A stretch of DNA of 22,192 nt from positions 1 to 22,192 of IMG/VR virus record IMGVR_UViG_3300024999_000436. One strand, written 5' to 3'. A program made the translations under genes and the position numbers. Below the pieces are notes generated by a model. That model was given only the letters and a program-made list of their open reading frames with translations. It had not been told where the DNA came from and did no database searches. Below, one piece after another: positions 7,977 to 21,444 of this stretch (positions are counted from its first letter, which is position 1; each line of letters opens with the position of its first letter). The stretch is from a virus.

Positions 7977-9260
7977 TTAGATTGCTTCTTGGATTTGGAT
8001 ATCTGTTGATTTAATTCTTCTTAATTCACCAAAATCATAGTCAAATTCACCTTGAGAGTTTATTATTTTTGAATTGTCAAGGTCGAATTTTATGTAATGA
8101 TGATTTTGATTGAGGTATGTACGTGCGTACGATATGATTTCTAGGAGTTTTTGGTCTGATGGGATTAGGTCATCTTTTTCACTAATGATTCTAATTTCTT
8201 TCCAACCAGAACGTAGTAACCCATAGGTTCTATTTCTTTCTCTCTTTATGAATTCTTTTTCTGTAAATGTACCGTATATGATGCTATTCTTGTGTCCTCC
8301 ACCATCGTATTCCAGATAAATCATTTCATCAGGGAATGCTATATCTAGAGAAGATGTTTTTACTGGGTAATTAAGTTCACCACCTATAAGATTGTGTATA
8401 TATTTTTGTTGGTTGCTACATGGTGCTGATCCATTTTTATAAAGAGTTTGTCTAATTTTTTCTCTTATTTCTGGACTTTGCACAGCAGAGGGAAATCCAT
8501 ATCTCTCCATATTCGTTTTTGCTACTTTATCTTTTATCTCTTGATTTTGCATTGGATTTTCTACACCGTATTTTTCCAAACAGTCTAATTTCTTTTTTAT
8601 TTCAGAACATTTATCACATTGATGCTTATTGCTATGTACAAAAGTTGAAAAACTTGCATGAAATACTTCTCCACACTTACATTGGATATCCAATCTTGGA
8701 ATTACTCCAAAATAATCTTTGCTTAATAATTTACAACCACTATTACTTTCTACCTCAACATAATTTTTTACTTCATCAAATGTGCTTGAACGTTCCGCTA
8801 TACGTCTAATATGACTACATCTCGGACACTCTGTTTGATTAGCATATTTAAATTTACCAAAAGACACTTTATAAACAGTACTACATTTACATTCTACTTC
8901 CAATTTTTCTATTGCATTGATATATGCTTTACTTACTATTTTACATCCACTATCGCTTTCGACGTTAATATAATTTTTAACATCTAGAAAATTAAGAGTC
9001 TTTTTATCTATCATAAGTAATTTTCCACAGTCATTGCATTGTTTTTTATTATACGATTTAAAATTATTAAAATCTGTAATAAAAGGTTCATCACAGGAAC
9101 ATTTAATTTCGATTTTTATCCGACCAGAAGCTTTTGATGATCTGTTTTTTTCTAATTCAAAATCTTCTTTACTTATTATTATACTGCAACCATTTCCTGT
9201 AATATCGCTGTTTATATATTCTTTTATCATATCGTAATTAAGTTTATTTGCTTTCCCCAT
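7977..9260 (-). CDS. Free-standing homing endonuclease, Vsr/EDxHD-like, with three Zn-binding repeats
   Basis: A 427-residue protein starting at ATG 9260 after TAGGAGGAG. Residues 1-220 hold three repeats, each about 70 long: 'VKNYxxVESxSGCKxxSK' followed by CxC about 20 residues on and CxxC about 20 further (C54/C56-C75/C78; C124/C126-C145/C148; C194/C196-C215/C218). Residues 225-280 carry two 'KYG/RYG...NQEI/SPEI' modular repeats. The nuclease lies at about 280-380: D306 in 'SLDIAFP', E317 and D319 in 'YLEYDGGGH', H323, then 'GWKEIRIIS', the pattern of Vsr-like EDxHD homing endonucleases. It sits between the capsid gene and the neck genes, with a terminator just upstream. The Zn repeats probably bind DNA. 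Confidence 0.85.
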   Translation of the reverse strand: MGKANKLNYDMIKEYINSDITGNGCSIIISKEDFELEKNRSSKASGRIKIEIKCSCDEPFITDFNNFKSYNKKQCNDCGKLLMIDKKTLNFLDVKNYINVESDSGCKIVSKAYINAIEKLEVECKCSTVYKVSFGKFKYANQTECPRCSHIRRIAERSSTFDEVKNYVEVESNSGCKLLSKDYFGVIPRLDIQCKCGEVFHASFSTFVHSNKHQCDKCSEIKKKLDCLEKYGVENPMQNQEIKDKVAKTNMERYGFPSAVQSPEIREKIRQTLYKNGSAPCSNQQKYIHNLIGGELNYPVKTSSLDIAFPDEMIYLEYDGGGHKNSIIYGTFTEKEFIKRERNRTYGLLRSGWKEIRIISEKDDLIPSDQKLLEIISYARTYLNQNHHYIKFDLDNSKIINSQGEFDYDFGELRRIKSTDIQIQEAI

Positions 9261-12974: not shown

Positions 12975-14612
12975 CTATTTTTTGTTCTCAACTCTCTGTT
13001 CGTTACTTTTTAAATTTTTTGTTATTAAACCTGATTCTTTTAAATCTGAATTATCCTTTGTAGGTCTTCCTCCTAAATTACCATCTTCATTTGCTGTATC
13101 AGCACTATCAGTGGCTGTATAACTAGTAATATGGGGAGGATATCGCTCATCGAAACCTGCCTCAATTTCTTCGTCGCAAATGCTAAGATAATCCTCTGGA
13201 TCGAATCCTGCGGCTGCGATATAGAATTTTCTACTTCCTCCTGCTGTTAAATATAAATCCTTTGCTTTATCATAAACATCCTTCTTATTTAACCAAGTAA
13301 TTGGAAGAAATTTTATATCTATGTAACTGTTTGGTTTAATACTTAAATGCTCATTAATAATCCTAGTTTCTTCTCTTGATATTTCATTGACATATTGAAA
13401 TACTTGAGCAGATAGTAAATCTAAGTTAATTTGTAAACTTCCTAAATTAGCACTGTTACTTTCTGCATTTAAAGCAGAACTAGCAATACCTAATCCAGTT
13501 GCTATTTTTTTCATATTCTCATCACTTAAAGTATCTTTAATTAATGAAGAATCTTTACTTAGTCTACTTATTTCAGTTCCAGGAGCAAGGCTGAGAGTTG
13601 AGATTTTTGCGACATTTCCACTTGTATTTACTTTTACTGCACCCTTGAACGCTTCAATAACTTCTTTTTGCTGAGTTGAATTTAGACTAGAAGATCCCTT
13701 TTTTTCCCCTTCCGGTAAGATGATATAATATATACTACTTGCCAATTCGCTAATTAATTGATATTGACTATCATCATAATCTTGACTTGATTTCATATCC
13801 GTAAACGCAGAAATGCCAAATGGAATTCCCCATGTATCAATTTCATTAGCTTTTGCTTTTAGAACAATGGTTTTTCTATAGTCTAAAATAAACCATCTTT
13901 TACTAGCATCCTTCTTATAATCCATATAAGCTTTTACAAAATTACGTGGATAATTTTTTATTTCATTAAGTAATCCACCATATTTAAATTGGTCAAAGTA
14001 CATCATGTCAAACGCAGCGATACTAACATTATTCTGAAAACCAATTATCTTACAATAGTCTAAATCAAGTGGTTGTATCATAAAGTTATCATCTAATGAC
14101 AAACCTTCTAATCTATCAAGAGATTCTACTGTCATTGAACCTGTATCTAAATTTTTATTACTTGAAGTTGTGTCCCTCAAGATCCCAATGTAAGAACCGT
14201 CAATAAACAAATGCCTTAAAATATCCCTTGTTGTCCGATCTATATTTAATATTTTAAGTAAAGTGTTAAACTTTGTTTTATTATCTTTCATTTGTGGAGT
14301 TTTATTTCTTAATGTAGTAATATAAGATAATGTAGGAAGTGCTATCATCCGATCTATGCTCTGACCATATAACCCATTTAAACTATATGATTGCCTTGAT
14401 ATAGTTCTCAATATTTCATTATATATCATAGGATATTTTACATATTGTTTTAAATCGCTCATTGGGATATTATCTGTATCTAATCTTCCTGTTGAAAATG
14501 AATATGAATTGTAGGATAATGAATTTAATTCAATTTCATTTGAGTTTGAGAGTGGGGGAGGGGCTGAGGGAGTTTGAGAATTTATTTCTGTTTGAGTTGT
14601 TTTTTTTGTCAA
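12975..14612 (-). CDS. Portal protein
   Basis: A 545-residue protein starting with TTG at 14612, 10 nt after AAAGGAGG; no better ATG is near. The portal forms the dodecameric ring at the packaging vertex. Evidence: size, place directly after TerL (30 nt gap), and the portal-like run of features: an N-terminal low-complexity tail, 'ILRHLFIDGSYIGILRDTTS' wing region, 'DTWGIPFGISAFTDM' (a common portal motif), the stem/clip region 'VKVNTSGNVAKISTLSLAPG', a helix before 'LGIASSALNAESNSANLGSL', and a C-terminal 'GNLGGRPTKDNSDLKESG' tail. The tail GRPxKxxxxxxESG is frequent in portals of phages of Gram-positive hosts. A 9-bp tandem repeat spans the stop. Confidence 0.85.
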   Translation of the reverse strand: MTKKTTQTEINSQTPSAPPPLSNSNEIELNSLSYNSYSFSTGRLDTDNIPMSDLKQYVKYPMIYNEILRTISRQSYSLNGLYGQSIDRMIALPTLSYITTLRNKTPQMKDNKTKFNTLLKILNIDRTTRDILRHLFIDGSYIGILRDTTSSNKNLDTGSMTVESLDRLEGLSLDDNFMIQPLDLDYCKIIGFQNNVSIAAFDMMYFDQFKYGGLLNEIKNYPRNFVKAYMDYKKDASKRWFILDYRKTIVLKAKANEIDTWGIPFGISAFTDMKSSQDYDDSQYQLISELASSIYYIILPEGEKKGSSSLNSTQQKEVIEAFKGAVKVNTSGNVAKISTLSLAPGTEISRLSKDSSLIKDTLSDENMKKIATGLGIASSALNAESNSANLGSLQINLDLLSAQVFQYVNEISREETRIINEHLSIKPNSYIDIKFLPITWLNKKDVYDKAKDLYLTAGGSRKFYIAAAGFDPEDYLSICDEEIEAGFDERYPPHITSYTATDSADTANEDGNLGGRPTKDNSDLKESGLITKNLKSNEQRVENKK

Positions 14613-14642: not shown

Positions 14643-16475
14643 TTAACTATACGAAAATACAAAATCAAAATCACTATCATTTTCTTTCATTAAATCTTGT
14701 TCTAACAAATCAATAAAATACAATCCATATAGCATAGACATTAGAATATCTTTCATCCCATTTTTTTCATCTATTTCTATACCACCAGATTTCATTCTTA
14801 TAACTTGTGTATTTACAGCTTCACTTATTAATATAGATGTAAGACAAAAAGGCATAATTAATCTAGTTGCCTTATCATTATCTTGCCTGTTTTCGCTATT
14901 TACAAGAGAACTATATTTATATCTTTTATCTAATTCGTCAATAATTTCATCTTCAGATAATAATAATTTTATTTTTCTTTTTTCAAAGTTTAATTTAGCT
15001 CTCCCGACCATATTTGCATGAACTGTTGATGCGCTTGCTCCTGATACTTTAATAGTAAATAGTAAAGGTTCAGCACTATCATCAATTACACGTTCTTCTA
15101 ATTTTTCATTTGCATTTCTTGTTTTCCATGCTGGATACTTTTTGTTTCTTAACAAATCTTCTGTTTTCTTAGTGCATAAATCATAAAACGTTTGACCCAT
15201 GCCACCGCAGTCAAGAGCAGCAAAATCACATTCTAAGTCATAAAATAATTGTTTAAATCTTAAAATCTGAGGCTCTACATTCATTCCACTCATTGTTTCA
15301 ATATATGCAATTTCCTTAATATATTCATCACCATTTAAAGTTAACCTAAATACAGTAAATGCAGAATTATCATTGGCACGAGATGACATTAAAGCGACAT
15401 CAAAACTAATTAATCTAAGCTCATCTTTTTCCTTTTTTTGATAAAAAGGATATTTTCTTATATCTCCTCTATATTCCATATATTCATCATCACTTATTGG
15501 AATAAGTGGTACATGAATTTTTCTACATCTATTTAGATCCTCAAATCTAAACATAGAACTTTCATTATCTCCAGTAGGAATAACTTCCATTTCCTGTCTA
15601 AAAGCTTCAATACTAGTAGTGCTTTCTTTAATCATTTTTTCAATTGTTTTCTTATTAATTACACCAGAAGATAACCCGAATTGGTACGGTAAACTAAATA
15701 CACAATAATCTTCACTGTCTTCTCTAATAAAATTTAAATATTGCTCAAACTCTGTATATAAACTACTTGTTTTTGAGCCAATACTTGATAATTCTATAAA
15801 ATGATTTGTTTCTAGTTCTTTTAAATGTTTATATTCTGCATATTTTAGATAAGGAGGTTGTCTAGTTGCAGTTAAAAATGGGATGAATACTTTGTCTATA
15901 ATATCTTTATCAACAATTTCCCGTTCATCAACTACCAAAATTTGACATCTTTCGCCACGAGCGTTATCACTTGCTACAACCGTAGCTACTTCGCTTCCTC
16001 CATGAAATAGAATTCTAGCTTCATCTTTTGCCAAACTAATATCTTTTATTTCTCTTTCTACCATAGGACAGTTTCTTTGAATTTCTTTTACTTTTGCTAA
16101 TAATAATGCTGCCTGTTTTTTGTTGGCAGCAGCGACACGAGTAATTGTCCCAGGGTATAGACAAGATTTTGCAATGCAATATACCATTGTCAAATATGTC
16201 TTGCCGATTCCTCTGCTGGCTAGAAAAATTGTGTTTCCTGTATGCCACATCATCCATAAAATAAATTGTTGCCACCAATGTAAATTTATTCCCAAATACT
16301 CCACACAAAAACGATGGGGGTTTTCTCTATAATATGTAATATAATATTCAAAATTATCCCAGAAATCTTCTGTTTTATTGTCTTTTCTACTACTTTTACT
16401 TTTTCTTAAAAATACATTGCTACTATTTTTATACTTATCTTCATCTAATTGAAATCCCTTTACGTAAGAAGCCAT
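14643..16475 (-). CDS. terL: Terminase large subunit (TerL)
   Basis: A 610-residue packaging motor. ATG 16475 follows AGAAGG at 8 nt. The ATPase domain shows the adenine-binding 'HWWQQFILWMM' (66-76), Walker A ASRGIGKT (86-93), Walker B ILVVDE (179-184) and the 'GSKTSSLYTEFEQYL' coupling region near 233. The RNase H-fold nuclease shows D359 in 'LISFDVALM', D422 in 'AALDCGGMG' and D576 in 'NGMKDILMSMLYG'. All key residues are present, so it should be active: ATP-driven translocation and cleavage of concatemeric DNA at the portal. It begins one base after the stop of the putative small terminase. Residues 151-200 and 549-583 have clear look-alikes in the 19071-20189 protein. Confidence 0.95.
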   Translation of the reverse strand: MASYVKGFQLDEDKYKNSSNVFLRKSKSSRKDNKTEDFWDNFEYYITYYRENPHRFCVEYLGINLHWWQQFILWMMWHTGNTIFLASRGIGKTYLTMVYCIAKSCLYPGTITRVAAANKKQAALLLAKVKEIQRNCPMVEREIKDISLAKDEARILFHGGSEVATVVASDNARGERCQILVVDEREIVDKDIIDKVFIPFLTATRQPPYLKYAEYKHLKELETNHFIELSSIGSKTSSLYTEFEQYLNFIREDSEDYCVFSLPYQFGLSSGVINKKTIEKMIKESTTSIEAFRQEMEVIPTGDNESSMFRFEDLNRCRKIHVPLIPISDDEYMEYRGDIRKYPFYQKKEKDELRLISFDVALMSSRANDNSAFTVFRLTLNGDEYIKEIAYIETMSGMNVEPQILRFKQLFYDLECDFAALDCGGMGQTFYDLCTKKTEDLLRNKKYPAWKTRNANEKLEERVIDDSAEPLLFTIKVSGASASTVHANMVGRAKLNFEKRKIKLLLSEDEIIDELDKRYKYSSLVNSENRQDNDKATRLIMPFCLTSILISEAVNTQVIRMKSGGIEIDEKNGMKDILMSMLYGLYFIDLLEQDLMKENDSDFDFVFSYS

Positions 16476-16476
16476 A

Positions 16477-17457
16477 TTATAGACCTTCTTTTCCAGATAA
16501 ATTAGTCAAATCCATAGTAGAGTCTTTAAAATATTCATCAAATACCTGCGTATCTTCATCTTGCTTTCCGGCAGTTCTTTTTATAGCTCCAGTCATTGAT
16601 TTCCACATGCTTTTAAAATTATCTGGATCTGCAAATTCTGGGTTTGTTTTTACAAATGGTTTTGTTTGTTCTACTTTTTTAATAAATTCACTAATTGTTT
16701 GGAATTCTGCCTGTTCAGAGGCCGTTTCTTGTCTTGGAGACAATTTACTACTTTTCATCATATCTTGAATACTTTTTAATCTTTTAGAAACATCTTCACC
16801 TGTTTGTCTTTCTTTATAAACAAATAATTCCTCAAAACATAATTGTTGAACTAATAATTCCATAGCTTTACCTTGTATATCATAATTGTCATACCATTCA
16901 TTATATTTTTGCTCTAAATAACTTAAATCGTCAACAGGTAATGTATTACCCCATTTATTTCTTAAATATTCTATTTCTACACTTTCAAATTCATCTGAAT
17001 TAAGTAACTTTTCATTTATAGCGTTAACTTGTTCAATGATGTCATCACTATCTTTAAACCTAAAATCTATTAATCCATTTGATGCTTTTGCTGTTGAACC
17101 TAACTTGCTTTTATATAGTCCAAATGTTTTATCTGTAGTCTTACCTTTTGCTAATATAGATTCAATTTGCGTTTGCAAAGATTTAAAAGCAAGTTTATTA
17201 AAACAAACATCAACATCTCTGCAAGTCAAATATATTGAATTTTCAATATTATTATTCACAGAAAAATAACCATCATATATACTGTGGCAACATGTTTTGC
17301 AAATGCTCATGAAGCCATTAGAATCTAGCATAGGGTTTGTAGCCTCATAAAAATTTGAATTATTCATTGTTTTTTGACATTTTCTGCAATATATGTCTTC
17401 ATTATTTCTTATTATCTTTTCTTTTTGTAATGTTGAAGGTTTTTTAGGTCTTGGCAT
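16477..17457 (-). CDS. Putative terminase small subunit with N-terminal zinc finger
   Basis: A 326-residue protein. I choose ATG 17457, 8 nt after AAGGAG; the ATG at 17463 is only 2 nt from that site. The N-terminus (PRPKKP) is basic, then comes a four-Cys zinc finger: C24xxC27 and C53xxC56 ('CRKCQKTMNNSNFYEATNP', 'MSICKTCCHSIYDGY'). The middle has 'YLRNKWGNTLPVDDLSYLEQ' and a helix-rich 'LVQQLCFEELFVYKERQTGE' to 'LKSIQDMMKSSKLSPRQ' segment, which I associate with terminase small subunits in phages of Gram-positive hosts. It abuts TerL. The role would be to recognise the packaging site and load TerL; the unusual Zn finger is a likely DNA contact. Assigned by position and partial motif likeness. 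Confidence 0.65.
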   Translation of the reverse strand: MPRPKKPSTLQKEKIIRNNEDIYCRKCQKTMNNSNFYEATNPMLDSNGFMSICKTCCHSIYDGYFSVNNNIENSIYLTCRDVDVCFNKLAFKSLQTQIESILAKGKTTDKTFGLYKSKLGSTAKASNGLIDFRFKDSDDIIEQVNAINEKLLNSDEFESVEIEYLRNKWGNTLPVDDLSYLEQKYNEWYDNYDIQGKAMELLVQQLCFEELFVYKERQTGEDVSKRLKSIQDMMKSSKLSPRQETASEQAEFQTISEFIKKVEQTKPFVKTNPEFADPDNFKSMWKSMTGAIKRTAGKQDEDTQVFDEYFKDSTMDLTNLSGKEGL

Positions 17458-17495
17458 AATCATTTCTCCTTTATTTATTGTCTATTTCTGTATAT

Positions 17496-17594: not shown

Positions 17595-18869
17595 TCATAA
17601 AATATTCTTATATTTATATTTATCTTCTAATAAATCATCAAATTCAAAATTCTTATATTTATTACTAAACTCCTCGAATTGTTCTGTGGTATTATCTCCT
17701 TTAGAATTAATATTATGATAAAGCATATGTAATTCAGGTATCAGTGGAATTCCAAGACCGTATTCATAGTGCTTTTTAATAAGTAAGCATTCAATAGACT
17801 TCATTTCATCTTGAGAATATTCATTAATTATATTATGTATTGGCAGATTCAACTCTTGTAATGTTTCATCTAAAATATTTTTGTAACTATACTTATGATG
17901 AACAATCAATTTTTTAGATTTAATTCCAGTTAAACCACAAGAAAAATTATAATTTGCTAATGAGTCGAGTTTCCAAATATTAATTTTGTCCCTTAAATAA
18001 TTATGTAAAGGAGATATTCCACCTTTCCAAAAATAGTGATTTTCACCTGTGACTTTTTCATATACACACTTTTTACAAGTTTCTGCACGTTTTATATTAG
18101 AATAGTTGGTTTCTTGCCATCCTGAATCTTTATGTTTGTTACATTTATATTTCAATGGCGATATATTACTTGTGTAAATATTTCCAGTATGATATTCATA
18201 ATCTCTTTCATTAAAAATATTCTTAACTACATCAATATTTACTCTTTTATTTATTCCCTGTTTTTCTCTACCACATGGAGTGCATCCTTGATTACTAAAA
18301 TTACTTGCACTTATTGTTTGTACTCCTTGTTTTATATGTTTAGGACATATATATTGATAAAATGTTGAATCGTTTTTGTATATTGTACCAACATATACAT
18401 ACCCTCTATTCTCAACAATGTTTCTATGTGTATCTTCTCTCAATTTTCTGTTATTGGTAATATTACAATATTTACAACTTTTTTCATCTCTTCTAAAATT
18501 ATTATATGAAACATATTGAACTCCCATATCTTTATGATTTTTACATATGTATGGCAAATTTGTTTTAGAATTTTTATATTCTTCCAGTTTAAATTGAGGA
18601 ATTAATTCTTTATCTAAGAATTCGTTATATACAATTAAACCATCTTTTCTTGTTTTGTCTGCTCCTGTTCTAAATCCACAATCATTGCAAAACAATTTTC
18701 CCTTGGTTAATATTCTATGAAAGTTAGCATTGAATGGATTCCCACATTTGCATGTTAAATCTAAATCATGATGAGTGTTAATATAATCTTCTTTCTTGGT
18801 TTCTAATTTACAACCTTTGTCATTTTCTTCTTCAATATAGTGTTTGATGTCTTCAAATTTTCTTGTCAT
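17595..18869 (-). CDS. Free-standing HNH-type homing endonuclease with Zn-binding repeats
   Basis: A 424-residue protein starting at ATG 18869 after AGAAGGAATT. Residues 1-64 ('FEDIKHYIEEENDKGCKLET', C40xC42, C61xxC64) are the same module found three times in the 7977-9260 endonuclease. Three further modules of another kind follow, each with CxxH, a 'NFxxxxxxCxxC' end and about 65 residues (C109/H112-C132/C135; C175/H178-C196/C199; C243/H246-C265/C268). The nuclease at about 275-400 has 'GENHYFWKGG', C311-GLTG, H324-H325 in 'LIVHHKYSYKNI', and H381/H385 in 'ELHMLYHN', which is an HNH-like pattern. It lies between the TerL-like gene and the terminase genes, with hairpins on both sides. Confidence 0.8.
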   Translation of the reverse strand: MTRKFEDIKHYIEEENDKGCKLETKKEDYINTHHDLDLTCKCGNPFNANFHRILTKGKLFCNDCGFRTGADKTRKDGLIVYNEFLDKELIPQFKLEEYKNSKTNLPYICKNHKDMGVQYVSYNNFRRDEKSCKYCNITNNRKLREDTHRNIVENRGYVYVGTIYKNDSTFYQYICPKHIKQGVQTISASNFSNQGCTPCGREKQGINKRVNIDVVKNIFNERDYEYHTGNIYTSNISPLKYKCNKHKDSGWQETNYSNIKRAETCKKCVYEKVTGENHYFWKGGISPLHNYLRDKINIWKLDSLANYNFSCGLTGIKSKKLIVHHKYSYKNILDETLQELNLPIHNIINEYSQDEMKSIECLLIKKHYEYGLGIPLIPELHMLYHNINSKGDNTTEQFEEFSNKYKNFEFDDLLEDKYKYKNIL

Positions 18870-19051
18870 CTGTCTAATTCCTTCTTTCCGTACATTTTAT
18901 TTCTCCGTACTAACCACCTAAAAAATAAATAGAAGAGAGGGTACGGAGATGGGCTAATTACTTCCCAAAAACCTCTCTTCAAGTCCACAAACAATATTTT
19001 TGCAAGACACAAAGACACTCCAAAACAAATTGAAGTGCCTATAATCCACAA
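18866..19051 (-). CDS. Doubtful small membrane-like protein
   Basis: A 61-residue frame whose TGA overlaps the endonuclease ATG (ATGA). It contains two hydrophobic stretches ('IIGTSICFGVSLCLAKILF' and 'YPLFYLFFRWLV') and a basic tail. Against it: the start would be TTG without a visible ribosome binding site, and the frame runs straight through a terminator-like hairpin (18920-18980), which would explain the repeated S/P/L/F codons. It may be chance coding. Confidence 0.25.
   Translation of the reverse strand: MWIIGTSICFGVSLCLAKILFVDLKRGFWEVISPSPYPLFYLFFRWLVRRNKMYGKKELDR
18920..18980 (-). terminator. Terminator after the TerL-like gene
   Basis: Outer arms GAAGAGAGG (18932-18940) and CCTCTCTTC (18972-18980) form a 9-bp stem with an inner TGGG/CCCA pair in the loop. 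Read on the minus strand it is followed by TATTTATTTTTTAGG. A competing stem, CTCCGTAC (18903-18910) with GTACGGAG (18941-18948), interleaves with it. Confidence 0.65.
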
Positions 19052-19070: not shown

Positions 19071-20189
19071 TTACATCTCAATAGTCTCAATATTATAATT
19101 ATCTTTTAAACCCATGTTATCTTTATCTCTTTCAAACAAAACAGATGCAGGAAGAATTACACTATAAAAAATATCTTTTTCCAAATCATTATCCACTACA
19201 GCATAATGATACCTCTGTCCACGACCATTTTGACTACCGTAAACAAATCTGATAGAACTTCCATTATGAAATACAATATCCAATCCGTCTTTTGTAATAC
19301 TTAATTTCTTCATATCCTTAGAAAACAATTTCCTAAAATCTTCTTCTTCAGCAATATTCTGAAATTGCTTTATTTTATGTTTACCATTATGATAAAACAA
19401 AACCTTAATACCATCATTCTCAATACACTTGAATAAATATTTATAAAAAGTTCCATGAATTACTTCATATTGAGCGATTCTTTTAGTAACATCATACTTT
19501 TCTTTAAAACTAATATCTGAATTATCTTGTTCGACCGCCACATGACTCATAGAATAAGAATAAAATGCCAATAAACAATTAACTCTAGATTTTCCGATAG
19601 TTTCATCTGTACGAGATAATTGTAATTTTCCACTTGAATTAGTTTTAATTTCAATATTACTTATCTCATCAATTAGTTTGTCAGTTTCCTTGTGATATTC
19701 CATAATATTTGACAATCCTAAAAATGGTTTTACATAAGATGTTTTAGCCAATTCTGGTGATTGTAAAAACCTTAAATTACCATAATGCAAATCATTTTGT
19801 ATCTCATTAATGTTTGTGAATTGACTGATTTCTCTTCCGTCTAATGCTCTAATATCAACATTGTTAGGATTAATATTGTTATTAAATTTTTCAATAAATC
19901 CTAATCCCATGCCTAGTTTATCTGCTAAAATAATTTGTATATTAAATTCACAACACAACCAGTATGCCTCATCAACAAGTTCTGAAAAAGTTTTATTTTC
20001 AAAAGTTCTAATTACTAAAATATCTTTTCTAATTCCTTGATCGCTAATTGCCATCATAGTCGTTGAATCTTTGCTAACATCTACAACTAAATAATTACAT
20101 TTACGATTATTAGACATAGTAAGCACTCTGTTCTTATTTAATAATTCTTTGCTAAAAATAAAAGGAATTTCTCTTAAATCAATACTCAT
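19071..20189 (-). CDS. Rearranged TerL-like protein: nuclease-like domain followed by degenerate ATPase-like domain
   Basis: A 372-residue protein starting at ATG 20189 after AGGAGAAAT. Residues 33-212 follow the RNase H-like nuclease of TerL: D37 in 'NYLVVDVSKDS', D90 in 'IILADKLGMGLGF' (TerL: AALDCGGMGQTF) and 'LIDEISNIEIKTNSSGK' (TerL: LISEAVNTQVIRMKSGG). The third acid (TerL GMKDIL) is Ser201 here (GKSRVN). Residues 300-345 follow the TerL Walker B region: DIVFHNGSS (TerL: RILFHGGSE), SQNGRGQR (SDNARGER), YAVVDND (ILVVDER), then KDI. No Walker A is present. The domain order is the reverse of TerL. The gene lies upstream of the terminase genes, separated by the HNH gene. It could be a packaging accessory, a nuclease or a relic; activity is doubtful. 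Confidence 0.7.
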   Translation of the reverse strand: MSIDLREIPFIFSKELLNKNRVLTMSNNRKCNYLVVDVSKDSTTMMAISDQGIRKDILVIRTFENKTFSELVDEAYWLCCEFNIQIILADKLGMGLGFIEKFNNNINPNNVDIRALDGREISQFTNINEIQNDLHYGNLRFLQSPELAKTSYVKPFLGLSNIMEYHKETDKLIDEISNIEIKTNSSGKLQLSRTDETIGKSRVNCLLAFYSYSMSHVAVEQDNSDISFKEKYDVTKRIAQYEVIHGTFYKYLFKCIENDGIKVLFYHNGKHKIKQFQNIAEEEDFRKLFSKDMKKLSITKDGLDIVFHNGSSIRFVYGSQNGRGQRYHYAVVDNDLEKDIFYSVILPASVLFERDKDNMGLKDNYNIETIEM

Positions 20190-20275
20190 ATATTTCTCCT
20201 TCTCTCATGGTAGGACATGACCCAAAATATTAGTGGTAAGACACTACCTTATTTGCATAACTTATTTTGTTACAC

Positions 20276-20304
20276 AAAAATACTCCCAACAAAAGCTAGG
20301 AGCA
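20276..20304 (-). terminator. Terminator after the Cys-rich protein gene
   Basis: Stem TACTCC (20281-20286) with GGAGCA (20299-20304), six pairs with one G-T, followed on the minus strand by TTTTTGTG. A second small hairpin (TAGTG 20231-20235, CACTA 20242-20246, then ATATTTT) lies 35 nt further on in the same 163-nt gap. Confidence 0.5.
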
Positions 20305-20352
20305 CTATCTATAGCAAATTAAAACTTAGATTTTAAGCTATTTATTATAAAA

Positions 20353-20824: not shown

Positions 20825-21409
20825 TTAAATTATTTCATCAATAAATCCATAAGTGTCTCTAGCAACTTCTGCTAAACAATAAGTTTCATTCCTTCTAATT
20901 TTCTTTAAATCTTCTGGAGTTATTTTTGTTCTTCTAATAATTAAATCATCAAAAATCTTTCCAACATCATCTTTATAAAAAGTAATTATGTCCTCTGCCT
21001 CTGCAAAGTTTGTATTTCCTAAAGAAATTGAACCTTTATGTAAAAGGAAAATTGAATTAAAATTAGCAATTCTATGTTTACAAGCAATAGCAATATATAA
21101 ACCTGCACTAGCAGCAACAGATAATACTCTTGCATGAATAGGGATTCTAGACTTTTCAATAATTTCTACAAGGAACGCACAAACGTCAGCAGAACCACCA
21201 TATGAAGAAATCCAAATCGTAATGGGTTTTAATTTTTCAAGTGGTATATCAATCTCAAGTTCATTAGTTAAAAGAATAGGTGTTGCAATCATATCTAAAA
21301 CATTTTCGTCTATCTCCGAGTTTAGATACAATATTCTTTTGTCTTCCCATAATTTCTTGTAAATTTCTTCATAAATTGAACCTGTTTTAAATCCATTTAA
21401 TAAATTCAT
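20825..21409 (-). CDS. ClpP-like serine protease
   Basis: A 194-residue protein. I choose ATG 21409 because TGAGGAA stands 9 nt before it; the ATG at 21424 has no good site. It has the ClpP/crotonase fold: 'ITIWISSYGGSADVCAFLVE' (oxyanion GG), the nucleophile Ser in 'VLSVAASAGLYIAIACKHR' (S101), the His in 'FNSIFLLHKGS' (H124), and a C-terminal 'YCLAEVARDTYGFIDEI' that matches the end of ClpP. Where ClpP has its catalytic Asp ('ERDRF') there is 'RRNETY', so the third residue seems replaced by Asn, Glu or Thr. Phage ClpP-like proteins often act as prohead proteases, but a separate protease-scaffold exists here, and this gene is far upstream. Its substrate is unknown. Confidence 0.85.
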   Translation of the reverse strand: MNLLNGFKTGSIYEEIYKKLWEDKRILYLNSEIDENVLDMIATPILLTNELEIDIPLEKLKPITIWISSYGGSADVCAFLVEIIEKSRIPIHARVLSVAASAGLYIAIACKHRIANFNSIFLLHKGSISLGNTNFAEAEDIITFYKDDVGKIFDDLIIRRTKITPEDLKKIRRNETYCLAEVARDTYGFIDEII

Positions 21410-21444
21410 AAAGTTATTCCTCATTTTTCTTATATTTTATTTTA

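Follow-up and report, generated by a model that had tools for sequence, protein, structure and literature searches.

A permuted and catalytically degenerate relative of the large terminase subunit, encoded beside an intact terS-terL pair

The Perm gene, its neighbours and its leader

The window, i.e. the whole stretch of DNA analysed here, is a complete IMG/VR virus record of 22,192 bases. Its minus strand carries, beside the genes for TerS, TerL and the portal protein, an open reading frame of 372 codons for which we use the name Perm (Table 1); it starts with ATG behind a good ribosome-binding site, AGAAGGAG. In tailed phages, TerL ranks with the best-conserved enzymes, and as a rule it occurs once, with a fixed domain order. 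The TerL of the window is intact and belongs to the SPbeta YonF group, with relatives in Sundance, vB_BcoS-136 and the Staphylococcus SPbeta-like phages. Genes related to the HNH-like gene between Perm and TerS, for which a Pfam search gave no match, occupy the equivalent place in many loci. On the 5' side of Perm, a small acidic protein and a ClpP-like protease are encoded, as is the end of a metallophosphatase. The protease gene (20825-21424; ClpP/S14-like, Pfam 8.5e-12) stands away from the portal-capsid genes and also matches head-maturation-protease PHROGs, and further homing-endonuclease-like genes, by inspection of a GIY-YIG-like and a zinc-ribbon plus VSR-like type, are found amid the structural genes (804-1718 and 7977-9260).

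Table 1. Positions of Perm, its parts and the surrounding features in the window
Feature	Position	Strand	Evidence
Portal protein	12975..14612	-	PHROG_2739 portal 6.5e-52
Intact TerL, 610 aa, SPbeta YonF-like	14643..16475	-	PHROG_15503 8e-45, PHROG_2 3e-19
Probable TerS, YonG-like, zinc-ribbon N-terminus	16477..17463	-	PHROG_3314 1.5e-38; synteny with Sundance YonG
HNH-type homing-endonuclease-like gene, between Perm and TerS	17595..18869	-	sequence inspection
Terminator-like hairpin downstream of Perm, 11 pairs	19013..19040	-	hairpin scan
Perm, permuted, catalytically degenerate TerL-derived protein, 372 aa	19071..20189	-	ORF, hhalign of both halves, homologues, dN/dS
C-half, partial TerL ATPase core, residues 227-372	19074..19511	-	hhalign E 5e-12
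Walker-B-like strand end VVD, residues 331-333, catalytic Glu replaced by Asn	19191..19199	-	BLASTP, alignment, column counts
Walker-A position remnant HGTFYKY, residues 245-251, without GK[ST]	19437..19457	-	alignment, column counts
N-half, TerL/RuvC-like RNase H nuclease domain, about residues 30-215	19545..20102	-	hhalign, column counts, Foldseek
Leader site 2, GGTCATGTCCTACC, directly 5' of the RBS	20209..20222	-	sequence comparison
Leader site 1, GGTAGTGTCTTACC	20235..20248	-	read directly from the sequence; comparison
Terminator-like hairpin upstream of Perm, 12 pairs	20279..20306	-	hairpin scan

The scan of 17.8 kb gave only four terminator-like sites, and the two with the longest stems bracket Perm. 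The script recovered the upstream hairpin in 13 of 14 loci and the downstream one in most; in L007, L015, L016 and L018, hairpins with longer loops, past the script's loop limit, are visible by eye downstream of the gene and are followed by T-runs. A scan for sigma-70 promoters at Perm performed no better than chance.

Nearly every Perm gene is preceded by two 14-bp GGTnnTGTCnTACC sites, which in the window are identical at 11 of 14 positions and spaced 26 bp from start to start. A block of 20 nt containing site 2 is invariant in all 13 Perm genes compared and reads TTGGGTCATGTCCTACCATG in most loci; the block surrounding site 1 is recognisable in 12 of 13. The leader block (the region of 20204-20248 in the window) is found once per record, including one record of 99 kb, and it is kept although the Perm coding sequence diverges to about 55% identity; a search for constraint at the DNA level extending from the leader into the coding sequence gave nothing clear. 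We also considered the leader as an RNA structure and rejected this, as its folding energies are no better than those of shuffled sequences and compensatory pair changes are absent. Because folding is no better than chance, a putative protein-binding site is the more likely interpretation. In L022, L056 and L016, a related leader is found before another, unrelated gene of unknown function.

TerL domains in reversed order and the loss of catalytic residues

Perm consists of a TerL-type nuclease domain followed by part of the TerL ATPase core, and is truly reordered but truncated. In profile-profile comparison (hhalign), columns 9-243 of Perm align with TerL columns 308-577, which is the entire nuclease domain (probability 97.5, E 6.5e-12), and the C-half aligns with a profile of 15 TerLs with the same probability of 97.5 (E 5e-12). 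The latter similarity is also visible to BLASTP, which pairs Perm residues 255-347 with residues 105-199 of the phage's own TerL (E 1e-9, 29% identity), and to PHROG_15503, a family spanning the ATPase half of TerL, which matches Perm residues 252-349 (E 1.7e-8) and likewise 16 of 16 homologues. A TerL HMM scored 18.1 bits on the N-half and 43.5 bits on the C-half, against best values of 8.4 and 8.9 bits among 1000 composition-preserving shuffles of each half. The C-half runs from the Walker-A helix to slightly beyond Walker B, and nothing in Perm corresponds to TerL residues ~1-90 and ~210-305 or to the C-terminal tail. On inspection, the terminal strand NYNIETIEM may match the strand that precedes the TerL coupling motif. 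The first-pass annotation had described nuclease elements followed by Walker-B elements, the opposite of TerL, and had proposed a circular permutation: the order is borne out by both alignments, but the permutation is a partial one, since the N-terminal subdomain and roughly half of the ATPase region are missing.

Searches of Pfam, NCBIfam and PADLOC, the last a library mainly of defence proteins rather than of inhibitors, placed Perm in no family. A sequence search of the PDB with either half of Perm gave no meaningful match; the search with TerL found T4 gp17. The structure prediction that had been suggested as a check came out in favour of a TerL relationship, albeit with low confidence: the AlphaFold2 model of full-length Perm (pLDDT 53, pTM 0.38) has the topology of an RNase H fold, then helix-strand-helix-strands up to the Walker-B-like strand, and its best Foldseek matches in the PDB are the TerL nuclease domains of Sf6 (gp2) and G20c, with viral TerLs being found in BFVD. 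At this confidence, the model does not allow preserved TerL surfaces to be compared. Foldseek found nothing in the PDB with a model of the C-half alone (pLDDT 60), so that the homology of this half stands on sequence profiles and not on structure.

The active-site positions were counted in up to 16 aligned Perm homologues. Two of the three nuclease carboxylates of TerL are kept, D37 (20079-20081) and D90 (19920-19922) being invariant in all 13 homologues that cover both, and the third is replaced in each of the 15 sequences covering its position by S (9), T (4) or else G or L. In the window it is S201 (19587-19589), the serine noticed in the first reading. E175 and N178, which correspond to the invariant E...N pair of TerLs, are kept. 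The Walker-A site reads HG[TVI]FYKY in 16 of 16 members; the motif had been called absent and is indeed gone, but its position can still be identified. Walker B ends in VVD or VID followed by N, S, T, R or K in all 16, and an acid stands one position after the replaced Glu in 15. These losses make an ATPase activity or a TerL-type nuclease activity of Perm very improbable. Measured against what characterises a TerL, Perm shares the homology of both halves and lacks the ATPase-then-nuclease order, Walker A, the acidic pair of Walker B and the complete set of three carboxylates.

Among known proteins, the YonF-type TerLs (Sundance, vB_BcoS-136, Staphylococcus SPbeta-like) contain both the nuclease and the Walker-A-to-Walker-B part of the ATPase that are homologous to Perm. 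Perm differs from them in i) the reversed order, ii) the absence of the lid, the C-terminal tail and half of the ATPase, iii) the lost catalytic residues and iv) its presence in addition to an intact TerL. The split TerL of Staphylococcus phage SPbeta-like (gp034/gp035) also has its ATPase side and nuclease side on separate polypeptides, but these follow the normal TerL order, whereas Perm fuses the two sides the other way round and accompanies an intact TerL. As a side observation, this split TerL is annotated as two adjacent hypothetical proteins (L141, NC_029119.1, 3213-5010), in contrast to the single full-length TerL gene of SPbeta-like 2, and the split may underlie the half-TerL families PHROG_15503, 26582 and 24618. 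In the paper library searched for permuted, duplicated or dominant-negative TerL, no description of a Perm-like protein was found.

Distribution, selection and decoupling from the neighbouring TerL

The search for homologues proposed in the first-pass annotation was productive: among 2.9 million viral contigs, 20 further IMG/VR records contain Perm or a fragment of it, almost all of them collected in one sampling series (3300024999-3300025012), with a single record from 3300001242. Wherever a locus is long enough to tell, Perm stands upstream of terS-terL, and a single homing-endonuclease-like gene usually separates them. The searched GTDB genomes, annotated phages and plasmids gave TerL matches only, and no Perm. 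The reading frame is open throughout in every locus and dN/dS is 0.10-0.23 in close pairs, in either half; Perm is under purifying selection. Together with the profile comparison and the predicted topology, this upholds the earlier idea of a degenerate TerL-derived protein retained for another role.

The two halves recombine separately. Between the Perm proteins of L004 and L013, the N-halves are 90% identical and the C-halves 51%; between those of the window and L004, the values are 75% and 90%, respectively. A separate gene of 156 amino acids that corresponds to the C-half without the nuclease half is present in L022 (6185-6655) and L021 (1604-2074), where it adjoins a divergent TerL. In trees of each half, Perm forms a single clade (100/100) on a very long stem of 2.15 (ATPase tree) or 2.9 (nuclease tree) changes per site. 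Perm had also been called a possible paralogue of TerL; a recent copy of the resident TerL is not supported, since the trees give neither a sister placement nor a resolved affinity to any TerL lineage. A tandem duplication of terL followed by deletion would yield the domain order of Perm.

The divergence of Perm is decoupled from that of its neighbour. Between L006 and L017, Perm is 97% identical and TerL 23%, between L003 and the window the values are 90% and 27%, and between L004 and L014 the TerLs are 100% identical and the Perm proteins 72%. Accordingly, a Mantel comparison of Perm and TerL distances gave r 0.04 (p 0.34); for Perm and portal distances there is a weak association (r 0.30, p 0.02). 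By these comparisons, the terS-terL module is exchanged behind Perm, which is not tied to the resident TerL lineage. Perm is also dispensable: it is missing in L063, whose TerL is 86% identical to that of L004, and in L067, L068, L069, L077 and L078, with TerLs 77-95% identical to that of L006. In such relatives its slot holds an antirepressor-like gene (according to a Pfam run on the L004 counterpart), other unknown genes, or nothing. Perm is thus present or absent at an equivalent place among close relatives, as is expected of a moron.

Some observations concern the terminase genes themselves. The otherwise similar phages L003-L022 swap terS-terL modules at one locus; these modules belong to at least five divergent lineages, and the swap boundaries often carry an HNH-like or GIY-YIG homing-endonuclease gene. 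The last ~10-17 residues of TerL follow the type of the neighbouring portal and not the TerL lineage, in a comparison of the window (14643-14680) with L003-L018, L022, L068, L071, L077, L079, L085 and L125: next to related portals, four TerL lineages that are only 18-30% identical share the ending DYDFVF[ST][YF]S or close variants of it, while next to another portal, in L018, L022 and L016, the TerL ending is SPSSYFAIANKSSRARR. The pattern suggests that the tail is a portable element for docking to the portal, or else that terL contains a recombination boundary. Perm lacks this tail. Moreover, L085, L109, L110, L112, L113 and L131 (and L083, L108) have a TerL with an interruption at the Walker-A Lys-Thr; in L109 the in-frame P-loop insert of ~437 amino acids has intein-splicing and LAGLIDADG domains and is an intein.

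Possible roles of Perm

Taken together, the bracketing terminators, the near-invariant leader and the decoupling from TerL argue for a moron-like accessory gene and not for a motor subunit. Our best explanation, to which we assign a probability of about one half, is that Perm is such an accessory gene, coding for a catalytically dead, domain-rearranged TerL relative that acts by TerL mimicry; this and the gradings of the other roles are our judgement and not computed values. Such a protein would imitate TerL surfaces without catalysis and without the portal-associated TerL tail, and would bind and titrate a partner of the TerL nuclease or ATPase domains, or DNA, or a foreign TerL. Since Perm is encoded beside terS-terL, it is perhaps made together with TerL. 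The most plausible uses would be i) action as a decoy against, or an antagonist of, Avs1-3-like host immunity, in which the fold of TerL is sensed, and ii) interference with the packaging of a competing phage. The proteins sensed by Avs1-4 are TerL, the portal or another phage protein (PMC12931631). As a tentative version of the first use, for which the odds are well below even, Perm would be an inactive permuted imitation of TerL that occupies immune sensors so that the real TerL escapes notice; this idea fits the accessory-gene architecture.

Comparable accessory genes are known from other phages. In Pseudomonas phage JBD26, a defence/counter-defence pair, Tab/aTab, sits between terS and terL; it resembles Perm as an accessory at the terminase genes and, as is likely for Perm, is transcribed separately. 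Unlike Perm, Tab has 83 amino acids, shows no similarity to proteins of known function, lies between the two terminase genes, and acts by blocking tail assembly (PMC10884400). In SPbeta, the portal YonE triggers SpbK, and the related phages phi3T and rho11 carry the antagonist Nip, an accessory counter-defence gene in SPbeta-like phages with a host-sensed portal (PMC11984713). In contrast to what we propose for Perm, Nip binds the TIR domain of SpbK and is not reported as an imitation of a packaging protein (PMC11984713), so that the known defence inhibitor of related phages speaks against mimicry of TerL. Likewise, the constant adjacency of Perm to terS-terL would equally fit an optional packaging accessory.

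An accessory of this kind would bind TerS, the portal, the TerL ring or DNA ends, and would tune how its own phage initiates packaging, cuts headfuls or terminates; we regard it as a rather doubtful alternative. Besides the constant place of Perm upstream of terS-terL, it draws on the TerL-derived folds and the weak association with portal distances. However, Perm does not co-vary with TerL in spite of TerL lineages at 18-30% identity, phages with closely related TerLs manage without it, and it has no TerL C-terminal tail and forms its own terminator-bracketed unit. The absence of TerL tracking, the dispensability and the missing portal-tracking tail equally disfavour two roles named in the first-pass annotation, part of a split motor and regulator of the phage's own packaging.

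An inactive subunit in a ring motor is a classical dominant-negative design. Perm could accordingly poison the packaging of a competing phage or satellite by joining or blocking foreign TerL rings while sparing its own, and the moron-like cassette in a variable slot would suit such a weapon. We consider this unlikely, as there is no sign that an oligomer interface is retained and Perm occurs with at least five TerL lineages, all of which it would need to spare. Less likely still is a nucleic-acid-binding regulator, in which the nuclease-like domain would bind DNA or RNA uncut, for example at its own two-site leader. This leader is invariant where the Perm coding sequence drifts, and without support for an RNA fold it could be a DNA-binding site; but a related leader precedes an unrelated gene in three loci, so the reader of the leader need not be Perm, and sequence reading is not known for TerL nuclease domains. 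The nuclease role raised in the first reading would require a rearranged metal site. The invariant D37 and D90 and further invariant acids of the N-half, e.g. D117, D133 and E175, could contribute to one, but the third TerL/RuvC carboxylate is lost in every covering member, which makes an active nuclease very improbable, and L021 and L022 retain the C-half only. A decaying, functionless relic of terL module exchange would agree with the frequent terS-terL exchange at this locus and with the domain order expected from duplication and deletion; open frames in every locus, the dN/dS values and the invariant leader leave it hardly credible, and we rejected the pseudogene reading as contradicted by purifying selection.

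For annotation, our data carry a warning, as the Perm family matches TerL profiles and yet is not a terminase. A conserved, inactive and rearranged TerL relative indicates that TerL folds can be reused beyond packaging. If Perm is a mimic, phage escape from immunity that senses the TerL fold (Avs), or a block of packaging between phages, becomes testable. Should the decoy idea be true, Perm would be, to our knowledge, the first decoy of pattern recognition made by rearranging the recognised protein.
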